Shown here: one piece after another, positions 6,182-54,087 of the stretch
Layout of the letters: each line of letters starts with the position of its first letter
Position numbering within the stretch: position 1 is the first letter of the stretch
NCBI GenBank assembly: GCA_015039465.1
Contig: MU130553.1
Location: 461,676-525,675, forward strand
DNA: 64,000 nucleotides
Direction: 5' to 3'
Source of the DNA: Phlegmacium glaucopus
Taxonomy: Eukaryota; Basidiomycota; Agaricomycetes; Agaricales; Cortinariaceae
Notes under the pieces: model-generated
The model's input: the letters and a program-made list of their open reading frames with translations, nothing else
The model's database searches: none
Told to the model about the DNA's origin: nothing
Program-made: the position numbers and the translations under genes

Positions 6182-8585
6182 TCAGGTATTATCTAAAAGA
6201 TCAAATGAGACAAACGGACCATAGAGAAAGAAAAAATCCCGAGAATAACTCATTAACTCACTATACTTGGGTCCACCACCTCCTTCCGGAACTGTCCATG
6301 TTATATCTTGAGTTGGCACTTTGATATCACATAATTTACAGTGAATGCAATTCTGGAAACGTCAAAAAAAAAAAAAAAAAAAGAGCGAACGTGAGTCCAG
6401 TCAAAAAAGACAGACAGAATACCGCCCGACCATACCTGTGAATTAATAACCAATTTCCGTCCACCCCAACCTTCCCCTTCCCCTCCCTTCCCACTATCAG
6501 ATTCAGATTCATCAACAACATACTCATAAACCCCAGCAGGACACGCTCGACCCAACAATCCAGCATATTCATTCTCGTTGACACGAACGTGTTTTCGTCG
6601 TCTATCAATCTCTTCTTGAACCGCCTCTTCAACTATGTCTTTCCTCTCTTCATCTTTTTTATCCTCCACCTCAGCTCCAGCTACATTCCTAACAGCCTCA
6701 ACACCCACACCAACCGCCCCATTCCCATTCCCCCCTTTCTCTCCCGTAACTTCCTCTAAGTACCTCTCCATACCAACAACTCTCAAATGGACAGGTTGAT
6801 CTTCTCCATGATTCGTACCCGTCAGTGATACGCTAGTTAATAAATCTGTGGATAGAGGCGGTTCATATGGCGGGTAATTTATTGGTTCGTGAGATGACGA
6901 AGGTTGAGTGGCGGATGAGTCGTGAGAGAGGGAGGGGGATTGCGGGTGCTGGGGAAGAAACGGACAACGTCAGAAAGGCGAACGCGTGTGTGTGAGAGAG
7001 AGGAGAGTAGATGACTCACATCCGATTTCTTTTGATGTTTAAAAGTCCAAGGAACTCTTCCCTTCAAAAACAAACTATCAATACCTGAATAAAGTATTCC
7101 ACCCCATATCCCAAACGGAGTATTGAATGAAGGTCTTAAATTACGGATTTCGTAGAGGTCTGAGTGGATCCATGAATTGAATAAGGACGTTGTGTATGAT
7201 GATAGGTTTGGAACTGATGTTGATAGGGTCGGTTCGGGTATTGTTGAGGAAGAACTTGAAGAAGGGTGAACGGCTTCCCAAGCAGCTTCAGCAGCCAACA
7301 TCCCACTCTTCATAGCATTATGAGTTCCTTTAATCTTCCCAACATTCACAAACCCAGCTGAACAACCTATAATCGCGCCACCTGGGAAATGCAGTTTAGT
7401 AGGTACGGATTGAAGACCTCCTTCGTTTAAGACACGAGCGGCGTAGGAGAGACGGGAGGCGTTAGGGGAGGATAGGAGGGATCGGAAGTAGGGGTGGTGT
7501 TTCATTCGCTGGTGGATATTAGTTTTTAAAAAAATAAGGAGAGAGAGGAGGAGAAGAACGCACTTGGAATTCACCATAAGGACTTAACCAAGGATTCTTA
7601 TAATCCAACCCAACAACCAATCCTAAGCTAACCAATCCACCATCCATATGATAAACCCATCCACCGCCATACGTATCCTTACCCAAAGGCCATCCCATCG
7701 TATGAACCACCTCTCCAGGTTTATGCTGCTTCGGATCAACTCTCCATACTTCTTTTAAACCAATAGCGTATGTTTGTGGTTGAGCATCTCGACGAAGGTT
7801 GTAGATTGAGTAAAGTTGTTTGGATAGAGAACCGTGTGCGCCTTCCGCTATTAAGGTGACTTTGGAACGAAATATCATTCCTGGTTCGAACGTTGATTTT
7901 TTACGATAAGTTTTGGATAGACCGACTTCGTTTGTGATGATTCCTCTAACGCTCTTCACTTGCTTTCTGTCGTCGAACGGATCTGGAGAATCTTCATGTT
8001 CGCTCATTAGCAATCCTGCACCTGCGAAACCAGGATAAACTTCGACGCCAAATTCTTCTTCTGCGATATTTCCTAACCATCTAGTGAATTGGCTTAGCGA
8101 GACGACGTAGTTCCCTTTGTTTCCCATTTGTGGGGGGTGAGGGATTGGGATGGCGTAGTTGGGAGTAAGGTAAAACATGCGAGAAGATGTTGCCGGTTGA
8201 GTTAAAGGGTGATTCGGTAGAGAAGACCAGGAAGGAAGCAATTCGTCTAATGCGCGTGGTTCTACCACAGCACCAGAAACGATGTGTGAGCCTAAGTATA
8301 CGCGTTGTCATTAAATTATGCCTATTTTTTAGAAAGAACGCACATACCAATTTCACTACCTTTTTCCAACACAACAACTCTAATATCTTTACCCTTTTCT
8401 TTCTCAAGTTGTTTCAATCGAATAGCAGCACTCAATCCAGCAGGTCCGCCACCAACGATGCATACATCTACTTCATCTTCGGGTCGTTCGATTTTGGAAG
8501 GGTTGAAAACTTCGTTGAGAGTTTTTGAAGAGGAATGAAATAATCTGCTTGAACGCCGTAGTACGATTCTCTGGCATCGAAGCAT
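6182..8585 (-). CDS. Electron transfer flavoprotein:ubiquinone oxidoreductase (ETFDH/Cir2 type)
   Basis: Mitochondrial inner-membrane flavoprotein that passes electrons from reduced ETF to ubiquinone. Five exons (8585-8348, 8291-7564, 7508-7020, 6948-6436, 6352-6182) join in frame to 712 codons. I used the ATG at 8585 because the Arg/Ser-rich start ([18 protein letters not shown]) looks like a mitochondrial presequence; longer readings begin at TTG. The FAD-binding [13 protein letters not shown] lies near residue 45, followed by SHIVSGAV and the [10 protein letters not shown] region. The 4Fe-4S cysteines are present in CPAGVYEY and CIHCKLC. Oddities: about 60 extra acidic/Gly-rich residues between HLRV and the cluster region, and a roughly 20-residue extension after [10 protein letters not shown]. 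The last intron contains an A18 run on the plus strand. Confidence 0.93.
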
Positions 8586-44194: not shown

Positions 44195-47100
44195 CTACTT
44201 CTCAGATCTTCCAGATCTTGGATATAATGGCATACGGTAGTGTTTTCCAGCTTCATCAAGTAACTTTATGTCATGTAAATGACCATTGTGGTCCTCGACT
44301 GTTCCTCTAAACTGGATAACAGTGTCATTCCGGATCCCTGGCTCAAACGAAAGGTGATCAGATTCAGAAGGACCAGGAATTGGATGGAGGGTTATATCAT
44401 CAATCGTGGGTGACGACTTGGATGAGGGGTTAAGTTGAATTCTAGTTGATCCTAGGGTGACTTCGAGAGGCCCAACTTCTTTGCCGGAATGTTTGAGCCT
44501 CAGTACAAGACTTTGGCCAGATGTTGGAGCGACGAATGAGATTAAAACTTTTGCGTTACGTCCAAGTCTAACTGGATCAGAATACGTGTTAAAGCCGTCA
44601 GCGTCCGTGAAAATATATGTTGAAAAAGAGTCCAACTTGGGTTGAATTTCTTTCGCGAATGTGATTAAATCATTATTGGGAGATTTGATAAATAGGGGAT
44701 CACGGTGGATGGCAGGGAGAGGTGCAGACCAACCCCGAGATATCGAAGTCACCCATGGTAAATCATAAATTGTAGCCTGAATCCAGTTGACATCGGAATC
44801 CGAACTGAAAGTGATGTGGATGGTGTTTTTGTTTCCTTTGAGAGCATGCGAGTAGGTTTCAAGTGGTGCACTCAGACGAGATGTGCTGAGATAGAGCCAC
44901 TTCAACCGAGAGTACCTGCATTCGAAAAGAGTATCGTCATCCCAACATTGATCGAACTGTCCCAATTCAGATCCACGATTCAAACGAAATTTGACATCTT
45001 CAATCTCCTTTTCAATTCGTAGATGGACCTCAACCTTAGATTGGGCATCTCTGGTCCGAAGAAATTGCATCTCTCTGCTCAATACGGATAGCGCTTGTGA
45101 ATTTCGTGTTTTGACCCCTTCAAAAAATTGGCGGATTAATGATGCCCACCCTCTCTGCATCTTTTCTCTTCTACGATCCCAACGATTGCCTTTGTCGAGG
45201 TCGGCCAACCTTTTCTCGGCTGCATGCATCTGTGGATTAAGTCTCTTCCAGCAATCGGCCCTCCACTCCCTCGTCAATCTTTCTTTCTCCTCCACTCGGT
45301 CGTTGCCAACCTGGTCCAGAACATTTTTCAACTTGTTCCAGAAGAGCTGTTCCCATTCCTCCACCTCGTATACCAGCAACAGCTCCATCAAATAATGTTC
45401 CCAAAACAGCCGCTCCATCTCTCTCTCTGATAATTCTGTTGCAGGCTTCTTTTCAACTGCTTGCTTGTCAACTCGATATTCCACTCCCATTTCACCTTGG
45501 TACCTCTCCTTTGCCTCTTTGGTTATCATTTCCATTCTCCGTGCAATCCACTTAACACGTTTCTCATCCAGCAACCGCCGCTCTCTTTCAATTGACGAGT
45601 GCATGAAATAAGCACATATAGGCAAAGATTCTTCGTTTCTCTCCTTCTCTTTCCCCTTCTCAACAGCCGTCTTCCAATCGTCTCCATTTTCTTCCTCCCT
45701 TAACCTCTGGAGCGCACTCATAGTATCCTCCACTTTCATTGTCCAGCTGTTCTCTATAGGATATGCTTTTCTTTCGTTGGCAGCTCCTAGTCGATACTGG
45801 ATGTGCTCCAAGATCGACCGATGATGTTTTCGAAGTGAATCCATGTTGTTGCTATCGCTGCATACATGGTCAGCTTTGGGATCAATTTTGGCCCGAATTT
45901 CTACTTCAAGTAGAAGGTGTCCGATATCAACGAGGGGTGCATCTGAATTTGTTGAGTAGAAAGGGTCTATTTCATTGTCTCGGGTGTAAACTCGTGTCGT
46001 ACGCTCCTTGTGATCGAAAATCGTGATATATAGAATCCTTTCTCCGAGTTTGGGTCTCTCCGCATTCTCAGGCTCACCGTCCCCATTCTCAGGCTCACTG
46101 TCCCCATTCTCGTGCTCATTCTCCCCATCCGCAGGTACACTCTGTTTGGATGGGCGTTTCCAAGTCAAAGTATAATAAAGTGAAAGGTCAGGGTTGCTGA
46201 ATGGCTCAATGAGCCCGGCGTACGATGTGATAATCTTCAGGAATTCTCGTGCTCGAGTGAGAGGCAGCACCTTGTATTGTAAGATTTCTTCGTTGTCTTT
46301 GTTGCAAGTGGGAAGAGGTTCATGCTCGTCCAGCTCCAGAATAATCTCCAGTGGAGGCGCCTCGTCGCTCTTCGGATTCCAAGCCCAAATACCCAATCGC
46401 ATAACAGAAAGCCCAGCTTCCAAGCAGAGCCAACTCACAGGACCGAGTTTCGATATCGAATTCTGAACAACGCTGAAACATCCAACGTACCCTACAACAG
46501 ATGCTAGAAGGCCGATAAGGAGGAGGAATAGCAACAGCAATGTACGCGCATCCGTTTGATGCTTCTTCGTGTCGCGAGGCTCAACGGCCGCCTCGACATC
46601 TGTATTAGGCGGTTGGTCTCCTTTGACAAGGTATTGGTCGGAAAGAGTGGTTATTCGTCGTTGTATGAGTAGCTGAATGAGTGTGGCCGTGATGAAGCCT
46701 CCAGTAGCACGCAGGACTGGGAATGCCCATCGTGTACTTTTCTGCATGTTGTTATTGGTGGCAGCCAGATTTATATAGATATATGGAGTGATACTGAAGA
46801 CGCATAGGAGCGCGGTCATAGCCATCATCTTGACGTTCCAAGCAGCGGACTTGTGGGACACCCCAGTTATCCGATTTATGTCAATGTTGAGTTCCTCGAT
46901 CAAATCATCCATTCGAGTCTCGATGATGTAGCGCCCTTTGTTCCCCCCTTTACCAGTGTCAACCATTATCAAAGAGAGGTTCTCTCCCTGCGGCTCGAAT
47001 CCCATATTCCCAAGTATCTTTGCTCCTTCAATATCCCCAAACGAGAAACAAGCGACCAATGTCTTGAATCCCGCTCTGACCATCCCGAGACTTCCGAATA

Positions 47101-47257
47101 TCGACATAGGTGTCGCTGCTGCATAAAGATATCCTCGTGTGAGCGCTGAGCTGACTTGGATCTCGCATTGCTCTGTACCGAGCAGTGGTAGAATCGCTGC
47201 AATATCTTGTATTCCTCCTGTGATAGTTGAACCGATTCCTCCACCACTGGATGACAT
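44195..47257 (-). CDS. Large multi-pass membrane protein of unknown family, 1020 residues
   Basis: A single uninterrupted ORF, which is unusual in this intron-rich window. It starts at the ATG at 47257, which also fits the paralogue at 38787. Residues 1-140 form a globular, partly hydrophobic domain with GTEQCEIQVSSALTRGYLY and the ENLSLIMVDTGKGG motif. Hydrophobic segments lie at about 143-166, 176-198, 239-263 and 273-293. A Glu/Asn/Gly-rich linker (about 378-402) follows, then a long charged region (about 500-760) rich in Glu, Lys and Arg that probably forms helices or coiled coils. The C-terminal third is β-like (for example TLGSTRIQLNPSSKSS). No catalytic motif is visible and I do not recognise the family. 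A truncated tandem-like copy 6 kb away shows local duplication. Confidence 0.85.
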   Translation of the reverse strand: MSSSGGGIGSTITGGIQDIAAILPLLGTEQCEIQVSSALTRGYLYAAATPMSIFGSLGMVRAGFKTLVACFSFGDIEGAKILGNMGFEPQGENLSLIMVDTGKGGNKGRYIIETRMDDLIEELNIDINRITGVSHKSAAWNVKMMAMTALLCVFSITPYIYINLAATNNNMQKSTRWAFPVLRATGGFITATLIQLLIQRRITTLSDQYLVKGDQPPNTDVEAAVEPRDTKKHQTDARTLLLLFLLLIGLLASVVGYVGCFSVVQNSISKLGPVSWLCLEAGLSVMRLGIWAWNPKSDEAPPLEIILELDEHEPLPTCNKDNEEILQYKVLPLTRAREFLKIITSYAGLIEPFSNPDLSLYYTLTWKRPSKQSVPADGENEHENGDSEPENGDGEPENAERPKLGERILYITIFDHKERTTRVYTRDNEIDPFYSTNSDAPLVDIGHLLLEVEIRAKIDPKADHVCSDSNNMDSLRKHHRSILEHIQYRLGAANERKAYPIENSWTMKVEDTMSALQRLREEENGDDWKTAVEKGKEKERNEESLPICAYFMHSSIERERRLLDEKRVKWIARRMEMITKEAKERYQGEMGVEYRVDKQAVEKKPATELSEREMERLFWEHYLMELLLVYEVEEWEQLFWNKLKNVLDQVGNDRVEEKERLTREWRADCWKRLNPQMHAAEKRLADLDKGNRWDRRREKMQRGWASLIRQFFEGVKTRNSQALSVLSREMQFLRTRDAQSKVEVHLRIEKEIEDVKFRLNRGSELGQFDQCWDDDTLFECRYSRLKWLYLSTSRLSAPLETYSHALKGNKNTIHITFSSDSDVNWIQATIYDLPWVTSISRGWSAPLPAIHRDPLFIKSPNNDLITFAKEIQPKLDSFSTYIFTDADGFNTYSDPVRLGRNAKVLISFVAPTSGQSLVLRLKHSGKEVGPLEVTLGSTRIQLNPSSKSSPTIDDITLHPIPGPSESDHLSFEPGIRNDTVIQFRGTVEDHNGHLHDIKLLDEAGKHYRMPLYPRSGRSEK

Positions 47258-47436
47258 GGCCTCGCGATGAAAGATTTATTGTTGTAGGGAGTTTTTGATG
47301 AAAAATGGCAGAATGGATTGCGAGAACAGCCGCCTCGAGGCACGTCAAACATTATACCGAATATACCTAGAGTATACCATTCATGATGTCAATCTATTAT
47401 TGTAATCAATGTTATTTTTGTCACGATTGACATACA

Positions 47437-48231
47437 CCACCAACCCTGCTTGAGTTCCTTATGACCTCTTGCAGATGATGTTTCTGAGAGGAAACGTAGA
47501 AATATCGACTAGATACGAAATTGATGTTCATGTGAGATTTTAGCTGTTGGTATCTGTGTGACGTTGTGATGATACACACTTGAGGTTCTAAGTTGATATC
47601 TGGCTGACCTCAATATCGAATATGCCTTTGACCTGGTTCGCGATGTCCTCAGGATGTATGCACAATTCTCCTCATGCCCACTGGCTTTGTTAACCATAGA
47701 ATATCTGGCTGGACATCCTGTCCACCATTGTCAAGGTATAAAATTCTTTTGGATAGGTGGTTTACTTTGTGACTGTTATTTTAAGCATGGGTCCGGGAGG
47801 TTAAATGTAAGTTACAGGTCGTGCTGACAGTTCGTGTGTTTACACTTGGGTGTCCTAGGTGAGCGGTTAATGTCCTCGCGGTCCTTTGGTTGGCGCATTA
47901 AGCCAGTTAACACGTATTCCTGCTGTGGTTGAAGTATTAGTTAAATGTACGGGAGGTGTTACGCTGTAATAATGCCTTTAAGGAAGGGTCTATATACTGT
48001 CACGGAGCCGGTGACAAAGACCTAGCAGCGTTTGCGAACCTACTTGACCCCCAGTTTTAATGTCTCGTCTACGACCGCTTCTTCCGACGGTGTTGACGTT
48101 TTCGTCGACTCTGTGTTTTTTTCTTATTGGTCCGGTTTCGACGACGACGACGACGTTTCCGCCCACTCCTTCAACTGTTGTAACTGTTACGACTCCCACT
48201 TTGCCAACCTCCCTTCGCTGTTTCTGCTATC
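47437..48231. other. Mirror-encoded gene A: C-terminal part, read as complement left to right
   Basis: In the complement (not reverse complement) the frame includes LGRTQGILENVYYKDSPLH near the left edge. After an acceptor near 47617 it includes KLDQALQESYIRVKRSTGDR, VVTVPYFKKTYPP and FTFNVQHDCQAHKCEPTG. From about 47791 one continuous frame carries VHKDDTNFIINLHALHN, LRKFLPRYMTVPRPLF and LDRRKRLDELGVKITEQMLA. It ends with an Ala/Lys-rich tail and GGKRQRR, TAG at 48229-48231. The composition and the HDCxxHxC pattern faintly recall transposon-associated fungal proteins, but I cannot name the family. The joins on the left are uncertain. Confidence 0.7.
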
Positions 48232-48257
48232 ATAATAATAACACAGATGGTAGTCTT

Positions 48258-49220
48258 AATTTATAAGTCGACTTTAAATACCCATCGAAGGGATACATGT
48301 CGAAGATTGAAGGCTCGGAGGTTGGAGGCACGGAAGAGAGCAACTTCGACTTACCGTCACAAGTATGGTAACTGGGTTCGATCCACCTTACCTAGAACTC
48401 CTAAACCCAATTTCCAAAGTACCGGCACGTGTGCTTCCTGAAGTACCTACTCAACATGGCACTCGCGCAGTAGTCTACCGTACTTCAATCCGTTCAATTA
48501 ACTAAAATTGAGGACCTAATACAATCTTGCTCAGTCATTTCAGTTTCACGTCCTAAGTATGGTGGACTATACGTCGACGAGAAAAGAGTAAAAGGAGCGG
48601 GAGTTACCGGAGGGCCTAGAGGAAGGAAGCGTTGGTTTCAAGCACCTGTTCGCGACGGGCGTCTACCTTCATCAGCCGTATCCTTAGACCGAGTAGTACC
48701 TGAACATCTACCTCTAACTACTCTAGGGACTGCTATACAGCCGTAGACCGTAGTAGTGACCCAACGCTCTAACCTTCAACCTAAGACAGATCTTAGATTT
48801 TCTTATTCATCACTAATAATTGAAGTTGTTAACTCTCGTATCTTACGCGGTATGAACACTATATTTGTCGGCCGCGACGAGTTAAAAGTATTCGAGTCCA
48901 ACGAAACACAGAAGTTATGACAACCACGGCTGTGGTAACAAAACTCGCAGTTTGAGCAACAGACTCGGACCACGACCCTTAAACATTTTTGCTCCTAGAA
49001 GCCTCATTCTCCGAACTCCGGACCTTCTGATCTCTCTCCCACGAGTCTACACTCTACTATTGTTCTCCGGTTTCGAATGGAACCGACCACCGACCACGTT
49101 CAGTAGGAGTGACTAGTTTTTCGGTTCGCTCTGTAGGAGATATCTGTAGTGCCCACTCCTTCCTTCTCAACAGTTACCCGACCCTCCCATTCCGGTCTAG
49201 CAAAGACCTCTTAGACGGTA
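48258..49220. other. Mirror-encoded gene B: complete 266-codon gene, read right to left uncomplemented
   Basis: Exons in printed coordinates are 49220-49080, 49028-48855, 48795-48565 and 48512-48258. Each is an exact multiple of three and all introns are phase 0. Intron 1 reads GTAAGC...CTCTCTCTAG and intron 2 GTATGG...CTTTTAG. Intron 3 is GTGGTATG...AATCCAG; its donor may instead be the GTATGA three bases on. The protein starts MADSPETIWPYPPSP, continues SEDPRFYKFPAPGSDNEFD, HIVRDLINLHLQVHDEPD, HLRAALVHELWLRRKEI and LTVQLIHEVLRVHGHE. It ends in REATHKFQLNI and TAA (48260-48258). It is a hydrophilic helical protein of unknown function, convergent with gene A and 26 bp from it. Confidence 0.8.
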
Positions 49221-49261
49221 TTGTAATTCTAACTAGTTATTGCTATCAAAACATTTTCGGC

Positions 49262-49286
49262 AAAAAAAAAAAAAAAAAAAAAAAAA
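49262..49286 (+). repeat. A25 homopolymer followed by AT-rich microsatellite
   Basis: 25 consecutive A, then TATATTATTATTATT. It marks the approximate right edge of the mirror-image segment. Confidence 0.9.
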
Positions 49287-50956
49287 TATATTATTATTAT
49301 TCTGTTGTGTGAGACTATTCAAATATCTGGTTCTAGCATCAGATATAAAGGGACTAAGGCTGCCTCAGGGATGCTCTCAGGTTGCCTCAGGACACTCTTA
49401 GGTTGCCCCAGGACATACCCAGGACATACCCAAAACACCCTCTGAGTTTTCAAAAAAAAAGACATTGGAATACTACCTTCTTAGAGCACTCTTGGAGCTC
49501 TAAGGCTCTAAGAGCTCTGGGGGTGTCTTAGAGTATTTTAGAGTGTCCTTAGACTGTCCTAGGGCAAAAGTGTTTTTCCTGATCTAGTAGTCCTGGAAGG
49601 ACAGGCAATTCTCTTCTTTGACTTACTATTTTCTGGAAAGTGATCCTTCAGTAGTGTGTGAACATTGGAATGGTTTTTCAGTCCTTTTGAGCATGAAATA
49701 ATGCCTCAGAAGTAAAGCTGCGAACTGCCAAACCGACAGTCCCAAAAAGGGGAGGCTGAGCATGTGACGAGCACAAAGTGAGCCAGCCGGGATGCCACCT
49801 GCTCTCCCTCGCTCTCTTCGCGGGCCCAACTCGGGGGTCCATCGACACCCTGCACCCTGCACCCTTCCCATCTGCCAAACCGCCTGCAGGACCCTGCAAG
49901 CAACCCACGAGCCAGCACCTACCTATACGAGCCACCCAGGACTCGGATCCGAACAACGCCAACCGCCGCTAGTATCAAACGCTGCGTTATCGGAAAGATG
50001 GGTGCTGGCACGCAATCTGTTCAGCATTCCCAGCCCCTCACATGCCCAGCCCCTCACGGACTTCAACTAGACAAAAATCTGAATTGAACAAACTCACCCA
50101 GGCGGCGCTGATATGATTGAGTTTTGCTTTGCTTTATTTGGTAATCAAAGGATTACTATTTTAGGAATTGTCTACAACAAATCCAGAAACCAGTAACTTT
50201 AATGACCAACAAACTCTGTTTTTGTGCAAGTTGGGGTTTCCTTGAAAGTATAACCAGTATACTCTTGAATAAAACAACAATACACTTTTAAAGTCCAAAT
50301 GTTCTAGACTATGATTCAAGTTTAAAGTCCAAATTTCTCTAGACTATGATTCTGATAACAAGTTTATAGTCCAATTTCTTAGACTATTATATAGTGCTTT
50401 TTGATAGAACAAAGGCAAGTCCCTATAGGATTTAATATCCTTTGTCTATATGATAACCAATTTTGGTAGTACAAAGACAAGCCCCTTTAGGGTTTAATAT
50501 TCTTTGACTATCCACAACAAATGATTTAAAGTCCCTGAGGCAGACTGTGAGACAGCTTTATAGTACAAGGATTTCTCCTCAGACTCTGACAAAGGATTTA
50601 ATATCCTTGCTTCCAAGACAAGTCCCTAAAGGATTTAATATTCTTGGTTTACACAGAACAAAGGTAAGCCCCTTTAGGATTTAATACCCTTTGAACTGAG
50701 TGAAGCAAAGCAAGTCCACTTGTAATTCCAATTCTAACTTGTGCCAATTCAGAGCGCTGAAACTTGGGAAAGAAAGGAAGAGTGCAAATTCACTAATTTT
50801 ACTGGTGCTTTCTAGCTACTTTTATACATAAATGAGAAACAAAATTAGGTAAGAGTCTGTGATGTCATGTCTATGTTTTATGATTACTGATGCTATTTTA
50901 TGATGTCATGTTTTGTTTTATGATGTCATGTCTTGTTTTTGGATGATAAATCCTTG
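49287..50956. repeat. Non-coding repeat-rich region
   Basis: Bases 49340-49570 carry short degenerate repeats (GCCTCAGGA, CCCAGGACATA, TCTTAGAGT). Bases 49740-50080 are GC-rich with overlapping ORFs on both strands and no recognisable protein. Bases 50290-50710 hold several degenerate copies of a 40-55 bp unit built on CAAGTCCCTATAGGATTTAA followed by TATCCTTTG, and copies of AAAGTCCAAATTTCTCTAGA. This could be the regulatory part of an LTR or another element. Confidence 0.55.
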
Positions 50957-51215
50957 TTTTATGATGTCATGTCTTGTTTCTAGATGACTGATCATTGTTT
51001 TATGATGTCATGTCTTGTTTCTAGATGACTGATCATTGTTTTATGATGTCATGTCTTGTTTCTAGATGACTGATCATTGTTTTATGATGTCATGTCTTGT
51101 TTCTAGATGACTGATCATTGTTTTATGATGTCATGTCTTGTTTCTAGATGACTGATCATTGTTTTATGATGTCATGTCTTGTTTCTAGATGACTGATCAT
51201 TGTTTTATGATGTCA
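50957..51215. repeat. 41-bp minisatellite
   Basis: Six near-identical copies of a 41-bp unit (starting TTTTATGATGTCATGTCTTG, ending ATGACTGATCATTG) start at 50957, 50998, 51039, 51080, 51121 and 51162. Partial degenerate copies lie at both sides from about 50860. Confidence 0.95.
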
Positions 51216-51224
51216 TATGTTTCA

Positions 51225-51350
51225 TAATGTCACAAAATGTGACAAAATGTTACAAAAATGTTACAAATGTCACGAAATGTCACATGATGTCACATGGTAT
51301 CACATGGTATCACATGATGTCACATGATATCACATGATATCACATGCTTC
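51225..51350. repeat. Short tandem array of ATCACATGRT-like units
   Basis: Continues from the minisatellite as degenerate 10-12 bp units (GTCACAAAAT, GTTACAAAAAT, then ATCACATGGT/ATCACATGAT). Confidence 0.85.
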
Positions 51351-54087
51351 ATTATTAGGACCTTTTATTGATATTTGATTTACTGATGTTATCCTTAGGA
51401 CTTGTATAACAACTAGCGGTCGACTTCGTCGACTGAAACCTTGCTGAGGTACTAAGCGAATTCGATACAATCGATTTTACGCATAAGCAGACTAGGTTGA
51501 AAATAAAATAGAATAAAATAAAGTGATGACATCGTCAAACACTACATAAGAAAATACTATTTGTTTTCTTTTTCTTTTTCTTTGAAGGTTTTTCGGCGAT
51601 GGTGGTCTCGCCGTCAGTTGCGGTAACCTCTTCGTCTTCATGTATTGCCCTTTTTTCCCATCTGCCTTCGAACAGACTTGCTCCCGTTGAGAGGGATCAT
51701 GCATAAGTTGATAGTTCGCCTGACTCGTTTTGGTATTTAAACAGCCTACATTGGATGCGGTTGCGACTGCTGTTAAACTTAAAATCAGAAACGCAATCCG
51801 AGGGTTGCATTACCTGGGTGGAATGCATTGACGGCACTCATTTGATCTTTTTTTTTGCTGGGTGATTGGGGAAGGAAGGTTGGTCCCTTTAGCAAGGGGA
51901 CGGACGGTCAGCTGTGCGCTCAAGGATCTTGATTTGAGTAGAAATAGTGGTAAAGGTGTTGCTGGTGATCGCATTCGTCCTCTTGTCCCTCATAGCGTTA
52001 GGGTAGTGTCTTAATTCAAAATAGACGAGAACTAACGAGCCTCTGAGGGAGACCCCGAGATCATGGACATTAATGAACTTGCGGTTAGTATCGAAAGCGG
52101 GTAATTAGATATGATGTTGTCAAAGCGCATGACCACACATGCTGGCATGTGTTTAGCTGTCTTCATGAATTTGTGAATACACGGGCAGTTACTTGAAAAG
52201 CTTGCTTTTTTTGCTGCGGCCACATATAGATCGAGTGCCCTATTTAGGGGACAACCCCCTGGGGTCTGTAGGAAATTGAAGAGGAATGCTGGAAAGGAGA
52301 TGGTGGGCGGCGTCTCATTATATACCTATTGGGCGGGAAATGGGATGTTGAACACGAGCTTTGCAACAATGAAAGGAAAGCCACGGTTACGTGGGCATGG
52401 GAATCAATCCAGAAGCGCACACGTGCCCGCACGTGGTCGTCGATGATGACATTTGCGTCAATATATGAAGATTTCATAAAGCAACTGGAGGATTTTGGGG
52501 GTGTGAGTATGTTTTAAGGCCACAACCTTCATTTTGGGTTGTAAGAACATATACAATGAGGGGGGATTGTACCGTAAACCAAGAAAACAAACAAGTACAA
52601 AGGGTGTTTCAACATTTCGGAAGCTTTTGTGAGTTTCGACCAGGAAGAAAAAGTGGAGTGTTTATTTGTATTGATTCATGAGAACGTGACACAACAAATG
52701 TTGACTTTAGACCCAGGAGAGACCTTGCTTTACAGCAAGGTGATCCTTCATAGTTGTAGACTTTGATAGTTACTTTAGATTGCAAGTAGTTCATTTGACC
52801 ATTATGGATTTTGTATGGTTAGAGTCTGAACTTTTTGTAGTGTTATTTAACAGTATGATAAATAGATCAATTCAGATCATAGTTATCTGCTGCTTTAACA
52901 TTTATTACTATGCAATTTCCAGTTTAATCAACAAGTGTAGTCAACACTTTTGACCCTTACAATATCAATTTGTAGATTAATTCATGGTTGGGTTATTGAT
53001 CTTGTTGATTCAATTGAAGAATAATATTATGAAAAATTGAATAATCCATAGGTATTCAACTTTCAGTCCTATCAGCGCCAGCCTCGATATTGCTTGGCTT
53101 CCTTCTTTAGTAGTGGAAGAGCTTGTGCCGATGCACAAGTAACATCCTGGTGAGTCCTGCTTGCCCTGATTGATTGGATCATGGATGACCTGAGGTAGGA
53201 CACCGTTTGAACTCGGGGAGAGATAGACAAAGACTGAGAGGAAGGGGAAGGAACAAAGATGGTGGGTGGAAAATCGGTCTGTTTCTTATTTTATTCAGTT
53301 GATGAAGGCTCTTGCTTAATCTCCCTCAATTTATTGTTCTTTTTTGACAGGGAACAATTATCTCGTATTCGGGTGAGTTTTACGTCTACACACCACAGGT
53401 TGCAGTACGAACAAATTCATTATTAAATGAGCCAGGTAAGCACATAACCCATCCGCGTGCAGATCTGGACTGAGGACAGTCCCATGCCTTTGGATACAGG
53501 GTATGCCATCAAACTGCGAAGCCAGAGCGAGGTTGCAAACTGACGGTTGCAAGGTGATTTCTTTCACAACCTGACCATTTTTTTGCTGATAATAAACAGT
53601 CTTTTCTGTGATAAGGGACAGTCCTCCTTTATCAGCAACAGTCGTCCAAGATCATCAACCGTTCTCGCAGACCAGCCCCCATCCCAGACCCTTACGTCTC
53701 GTCTCATAAACACATGTGGCACCTCGCCCTTTCTTTCTCATCCCACCCCCACCACCCCTCCTTCAATACTGGCGCTCCAAAGCTGCACTCACAGACCATA
53801 CCCATCCCATGCCCTTACATCTCATCTCATAAACATGTGCGGCAACTTGGCCTTTCTTTCTTGGCAATTCCACCACCACCACCACCACCACCACCACCCA
53901 TCCCTCCTTTGGTACTGGTGCCCCAAAGCGACTGCCCTGTGCCTCCCACTATGCTAGTTTACGGTGTGTAAATTGCATAGCACCATTTCTAAGTAAGTCT
54001 TACATATTCTTCGGGTAAGCGCAAGGTAGCTGACAGGAACTTTTTAGCATAAAAGCTTCCCCGTCATCTCCAGCCACCACTATCACC
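51351..54087. other. Spacer with possible Harbinger-type transposase trace
   Basis: At 51815-51856 (+) the reading WVECIDGTHLI resembles the block around the second catalytic Asp of PIF/Harbinger DDE transposases, but it stops soon after and neighbouring frames are broken. Bases 53660-53970 are Pro/His-rich low complexity including a (CAC)n run. A 62-codon ORF at 52329-52517 is unrecognised. Confidence 0.35.

Follow-up and report, generated by a model that had tools for sequence, protein, structure and literature searches.

Can a stretch of fungal DNA be printed backwards – its letters reversed in order but not complemented – and, if so, does the reversal belong to the organism or to its assembly? 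This question is raised by a 64,000-nucleotide stretch of Phlegmacium glaucopus DNA (hereafter the window), which corresponds to C195:461676-525675 in an assembly of 60.5 Mb and 259 contigs (C-numbers are contig labels used here). An earlier note, made from the letters of the window, had described about 1.8 kb at 47437-49261 as mirror-image genes. It preferred a fault of assembly, scaffolding or data handling as the cause and left open both a deliberate alteration and a real mirror insertion.

We found that the backward letters have a counterpart elsewhere in the assembly. String-reversed without complementing, window 47751-49260 corresponds to C167:98700-97191 (minus-strand reading), with 1507 of 1510 positions identical, three mismatches and no gaps – an identity beyond chance. 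Immediately to the left, 47437-47750 (plus strand) is a normally oriented copy of C167:99015-98702, identical at 100% over query bases 1-314; the alignment with C167 in normal reading runs over 47426-47750 at 99.4%. The mirrored part consists of 1510 bases reversed in place, directly after this normally oriented 314-base anchor. The mirrored string reported earlier is indeed present, and its true limits are 47751-49260, since the first 314 bases of the reported interval match C167 normally. To the right, a single C at 49261 separates the tract from a run of A, and C167 has a T between its own two parts. Correcting the string of the tract yields continuity with the C167 sequence.

In normal reading, C167:90001-106000 matched the window only at 47426-47750 and at one 86-base piece elsewhere. 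A search of the assembly with C167:97202-100515, which covers the source of the mirrored part except for 11 bases, returned no second normal copy of that part (nine of nine candidates scored). A chromosomal inversion, too, would turn round the order of a segment held between two fixed points. The product of a real inversion is always the reverse complement; the tract matches the reversed, uncomplemented string of its source and not the reverse complement, and this candidate was rejected.

The mirrored letters interrupt a gene. Consistent with the earlier note, the reversed, uncomplemented strand holds a four-exon frame (141+174+231+255 = 801 bases, 266 codons and a stop) in which all exons are multiples of three. 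A protein search matched a single entry, which belongs to the gene itself: BYT27DRAFT_7339984, a hypothetical protein of P. glaucopus (292 aa), encoded on the C167 copy. In the annotation, translation does not start at the codon proposed earlier; exon 1 of the NCBI protein (47654-47735, plus strand, 82 bases) is normally oriented, and from it the protein jumps to 49213. Exon 2 (49080-49213) can be read only backwards without complement, and exons 3 (48855-49028), 4 (48565-48795) and 5 (48258-48512, with the stop) are likewise mirrored; at the 3' end of exon 4, before the third intron of the earlier model, the NCBI protein carries one more residue (V). Because annotated exon 1 is normal and the rest is mirrored from 49213 downwards, the mirror edge cuts the gene inside its first intron.

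A second open frame, in the complement read forwards, was also recovered; it spans 154 codons at 47767-48228, and its normal counterpart is C167:97207-97668 (+). Frames in the ordinary six readings are short here, as had been said, with a maximum of 90 codons from stop to stop in place of about 70. The suggestion that genes are hidden from annotation holds only in part for the window, whose gene is annotated normally on C167, and it does fit another tract, C195:84744-87037, where the gene for ribosomal protein uL23 was found in mirrored form only.

Pfam gave no family for the mirrored gene, for the complement frame or for the neighbouring C167 open frames that were tried, except PF17667, and Rfam gave no match within 47200-49500. 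The PF17667 frame, a fungal kinase, adjoins the normal gene copy on C167. We considered whether the complement frame may be part of a KDZ-type transposable element, a reading to which Pfam lent no support and which we set aside. Three copies of a segment on C167 (88074-89512, 99052-100515 and 126148-127587) are 91-92% alike, and the one at 99052-100515, next to the normally oriented gene copy, falls within the PF17667 fungal protein kinase frame.

The run of A that follows the tract, with one base in between, occupies 49262-49286 and is exactly 25 bases long. Scanning five stretches (the window, C195:1-200000, C167:90001-106000 and two small pieces) for homopolymers of at least 20 bases returned two, both exactly 25 A. 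Counted over the whole assembly, there are 157 isolated 25-A runs on the printed strand against one on the other strand, a split with a one-sided chance of 4e-46. In natural sequence neither strand should be favoured. Because of the 157:1 strand bias and the exact length of 25, we read these runs as gap placeholders that were turned into A; the run at 49262-49286 would then be a converted 25-base placeholder and not a poly(A) tail. Another such run, at C195:6473, is flanked by normal sequence on both sides and has no mirrored neighbour. A run of 19 A at window 6364-6382 is the only other homopolymer of at least 11 bases in the window.

A duplicated C167 segment followed by 25 A is also what a retroposed copy with a poly(A) tail would look like, had an ordinary inversion of the twin-priming kind rearranged it. 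Such an inversion yields the reverse complement; the match found here is an uncomplemented reversal, and the orientation of the match refutes this explanation. The segment also keeps its introns, and its A run is one of 157 of the same exact length that share a strand bias genome-wide. We consider that a retrocopy has practically no chance of being correct.

Two further mirrored tracts were found at gaps on the same contig. Within C195:1-200000 there are two runs of N (87038-90881 and 150007-154390), and the sequence to the left of each is mirrored, at about 84744-87037 and at 147888-150006, both tracts ending exactly at the N. Together with the two 25-A runs, this makes four gap sites scanned; the left edge is mirrored at three of the four and the right edge at none. 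The second of these tracts carries its own counterpart, in that the reversed string of C195:147888-149489 equals 154391-155993, directly right of the same gap, at 99.4%. When C195:147888-150006 is reversed in place, it runs into the right flank, and retroelement matches (counted if longer than 250 bases) cross the left join, in the best case growing from 608 bp to 1425 bp. In-place reversal of C195:84744-87037, with the edge at 84744 taken from a mirrored match, lengthens a repeat-rich stop-to-stop frame from 385 to 566 codons; with the edge placed at 84772, as given by a 4-mer score, the frame does not lengthen. In-place reversal repairs the joins of both tracts beside N gaps, with the 84744-87037 case depending on the edge chosen.

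The tract at C195:84744-87037 contains the gene for cytosolic uL23, visible only in the mirrored reading (exon peptides: PF03939, 2.8e-25; PF00276, 4.3e-13). When the assembly was read in its six normal frames, the uL23 exon peptides had no match, a search in which no positive control responded and which alone shows little; PF03939 likewise had no match in those frames, and as none of its controls responded this too shows little by itself. PF00276 did respond in the six normal frames, at one place (C4:392173-392355, 32 bits). A mirrored uL23 exon alone reaches 49.9 bits for PF00276, above the C4 match, which probably represents the mitochondrial homologue. A comparison ribosomal family, L15e, was readily found in the assembly. 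To our knowledge cytosolic uL23 is indispensable in eukaryotes, and a eukaryote with no readable uL23 gene cannot live. Since the gene was found only mirrored and is indispensable, it is simplest to suppose that the real sequence of this tract differs from the one printed; a second, normal uL23 copy may lie inside an unfilled gap.

Mirrored sequence recurs well beyond C195. A 25-base word from a dispersed repeat occurs 406 times in normal reading and 42 times read backwards. An 811-base mirrored query gave at least 41 matches including itself, 99 to 811 bases long and on at least 30 contigs (40 of 67 candidates scored). The reading in which this query is itself the normal copy was dropped after the word counts of 406 against 42. 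Among the 24 mirrored-repeat matches on C1-C184, the contigs on which they were compared with the positions of 25-A runs, two (C144:196450 and C176:123849) adjoin such a run from the left, ending no more than three bases away from it. Two matches are instead found on the right side of a run, at distances of 488 and 552 bases (on C183 and C176), so the rule seen on C195, in which mirrored sequence is confined to left edges, may not be general. Other mirrored stretches lie where neither N nor a long A run is present: at C237:3351-7050, 13 of 15 pieces of 250 bases score as mirrored, and on C148, near 4234, reversed-string matches stop and normal ones start. The 4-mer score of the left part of C148 is not negative and does not support the mirrored call there. 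We assume that the C237 and C148 stretches are gaps that were fully closed.

This distribution bears on whether the window was altered deliberately, as a planted test. A string reversal is easily made by hand. The mirrored sequence is nevertheless in the assembly itself (C195:509112-510936), dozens of mirrored places occur on many contigs, some of them at N gaps well away from the window, and neither an end at a 25-A run nor a 157:1 strand bias is what one would expect of a planted edit. We judge a planted alteration to be very improbable.

The mirrored character of the tract also emerges from a score that needs no alignment and compares each 4-mer with the same word reversed. With a model trained only on C195:1-200000, the window minimum lies at 47737, with a score of -42.1 (mean 15.4, sd 10.8 over all 1.5 kb positions). 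In a second model the tract scores -41.3, against a mean of 23.6 (sd 12.1, minimum -11.1) for 173 other 1.5 kb pieces, most of which were included in the training set of that model. Two other stretches of C195, 35293-36307 and 163332-164453, have low 4-mer scores and no adjoining gap. Neither was confirmed as mirrored – the former had two normal matches and no mirrored match, and the latter no normal match and one mirrored match – and unusual composition may lie behind their scores.

A real mirror-image insertion, the alternative that the earlier note had left open, would require 1.5 kb to have been copied in the parallel and not the antiparallel sense. It would take the printed sequence at face value, and it could draw on the many recurrences, some of which have no visible gap. 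We know of no polymerase or recombination reaction that yields mirror DNA. Mirror DNA of this kind should be independent of gaps and leave essential genes readable. What we found is that the mirrored tracts on the contig sampled end at gaps or at a placeholder, that cytosolic uL23 appears only mirrored, and that in-place reversal restores continuity, with some mirrored stretches remaining that have no visible gap. We therefore reject the insertion on the grounds of the gaps, uL23 and restored continuity, and regard its probability as minute.

The mirror tract is almost certainly an assembly artefact that apparently arose during gap filling – not a biological feature, and not a source of new biology. 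We conclude this because of the mirror identity to C167, the strand bias of the 25-A runs, the recurrence of mirrored tracts at gaps, the in-place geometry and the presence of uL23 in mirrored form only. The cause that the earlier note had preferred is borne out by mirrored tracts that recur in the assembly, that on the contig sampled sit at the left edges of gaps or of a 25-A placeholder and that, in the two cases beside N gaps, join up with their flanks when reversed in place.

A sequence of events can be proposed for the window. The contig, part of a JGI genome, would have been interrupted by a gap beyond about 47750, and a gap-filling step would have extended the left contig with plausible sequence – either the next part of C167 or a near-identical second copy. 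The 1510 added bases would have been written reversed instead of reverse-complemented, and a 25-base placeholder would have been left, later becoming the 25 A at 49262-49286. Other gaps of the assembly would have been hit by the same fault, with leftovers remaining as N or as a minimum gap of 25 bases. The faulty step was probably flank extension by a gap filler. That the N were turned into A after the filling is a more tentative part of the proposal.

Gap-fill errors usually take the form of wrong order, duplication or reverse-complement orientation. Cortinarius glaucopus is, we take it, the older name of P. glaucopus. A genome study that includes C. glaucopus describes JGI genomes built with ALLPATHS-LG from Illumina reads, with PBJelly used to patch the hybrid assemblies, and others made with Falcon or Celera (PMC7550596); the C. 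glaucopus assembly of that study is probably the one analysed here. In the description of PBJelly, a gap is a run of at least 25 N, and flanks are extended into gaps that the program is unable to close (PMC3504050). Misassembly of this type resembles what we observe in that contig edges at gaps gain new sequence, the smallest gap of PBJelly is 25 N and leftovers stay N (PMC3504050); it differs in that the letters here are reversed without complementing. PBJelly may be the program concerned, which we offer as a plausible lead and not as proven. Counting against the gap-fill explanation, the tract has no indels in 1510 bp, cleaner than expected of raw long reads. The literature searched, including the available portions of PMC7550596, PMC3504050, PMC8480192, PMC6733440 and PMC8081667, contained no description of reversed, uncomplemented gap fills.

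An apparently impossible biological claim thus becomes a checkable assembly fault. The P. glaucopus assembly contains backward stretches on many contigs, 157 strand-biased runs of 25 A that pass for sequence, and a uL23 gene that is unreadable at one gap, so that analyses of gene loss, repeats and divergence that use the assembly can be misled. The fault can be looked for with two cheap tests: counting 25-A against 25-T runs, and searching for a repeat word backwards without complementing. It is conceivable, at somewhat less than an even chance, that an undocumented reversal fault of one pipeline has put mirror sequence into public assemblies on a large scale, leaving real genes (here cytosolic uL23) out of reach of genome searches and false divergent copies present. 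If so, the 25-A strand bias and mirrored edges at gaps should also be seen in other products of that pipeline.

Within the artefact explanation, we asked which sequence the fill represents. Either C195 has a true second copy of the C167 segment and the fill was merely reversed, or the fill was wrongly recruited from C167; we hold a second copy to be an even call. Three substitutions and a differing junction base set the tract apart from C167, and 47437-47750 is joined normally to C195, as a second copy would have it. Wrong recruitment is favoured by the search of the assembly, in which the mirrored part turned up in normal form just once, and the three substitutions could also reflect the two nuclei of a dikaryon.

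The flanks were examined at the join between the left flank of C195 and the C167-like piece, which lies at 47433-47437. The matches of all five left-flank paralogues examined end at or before 47435: three stop exactly there, one at 47424, and the paralogue within the window at 47391. An empty site was looked for among them; none of the five resumes beyond the 25-A run, and they do not show one. A search with the right flank (best 40 of 494 candidates) returned, besides the place itself, matches only from query base 822 onwards.

Both flanks carry repeated sequence. On the left, window 44195-47257 (-) is a 1020-aa open frame with no Pfam family that belongs to a dispersed gene family, and window 46400-47436 has at least 47 DNA matches including itself (40 of 55 candidates scored), with clusters on contigs that include C186 and C232. 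On the right of the placeholder, a dispersed repeat occupies window positions from about 50083 to 51412, with copies that are 87-99% identical among the best 40 of 494 candidates.
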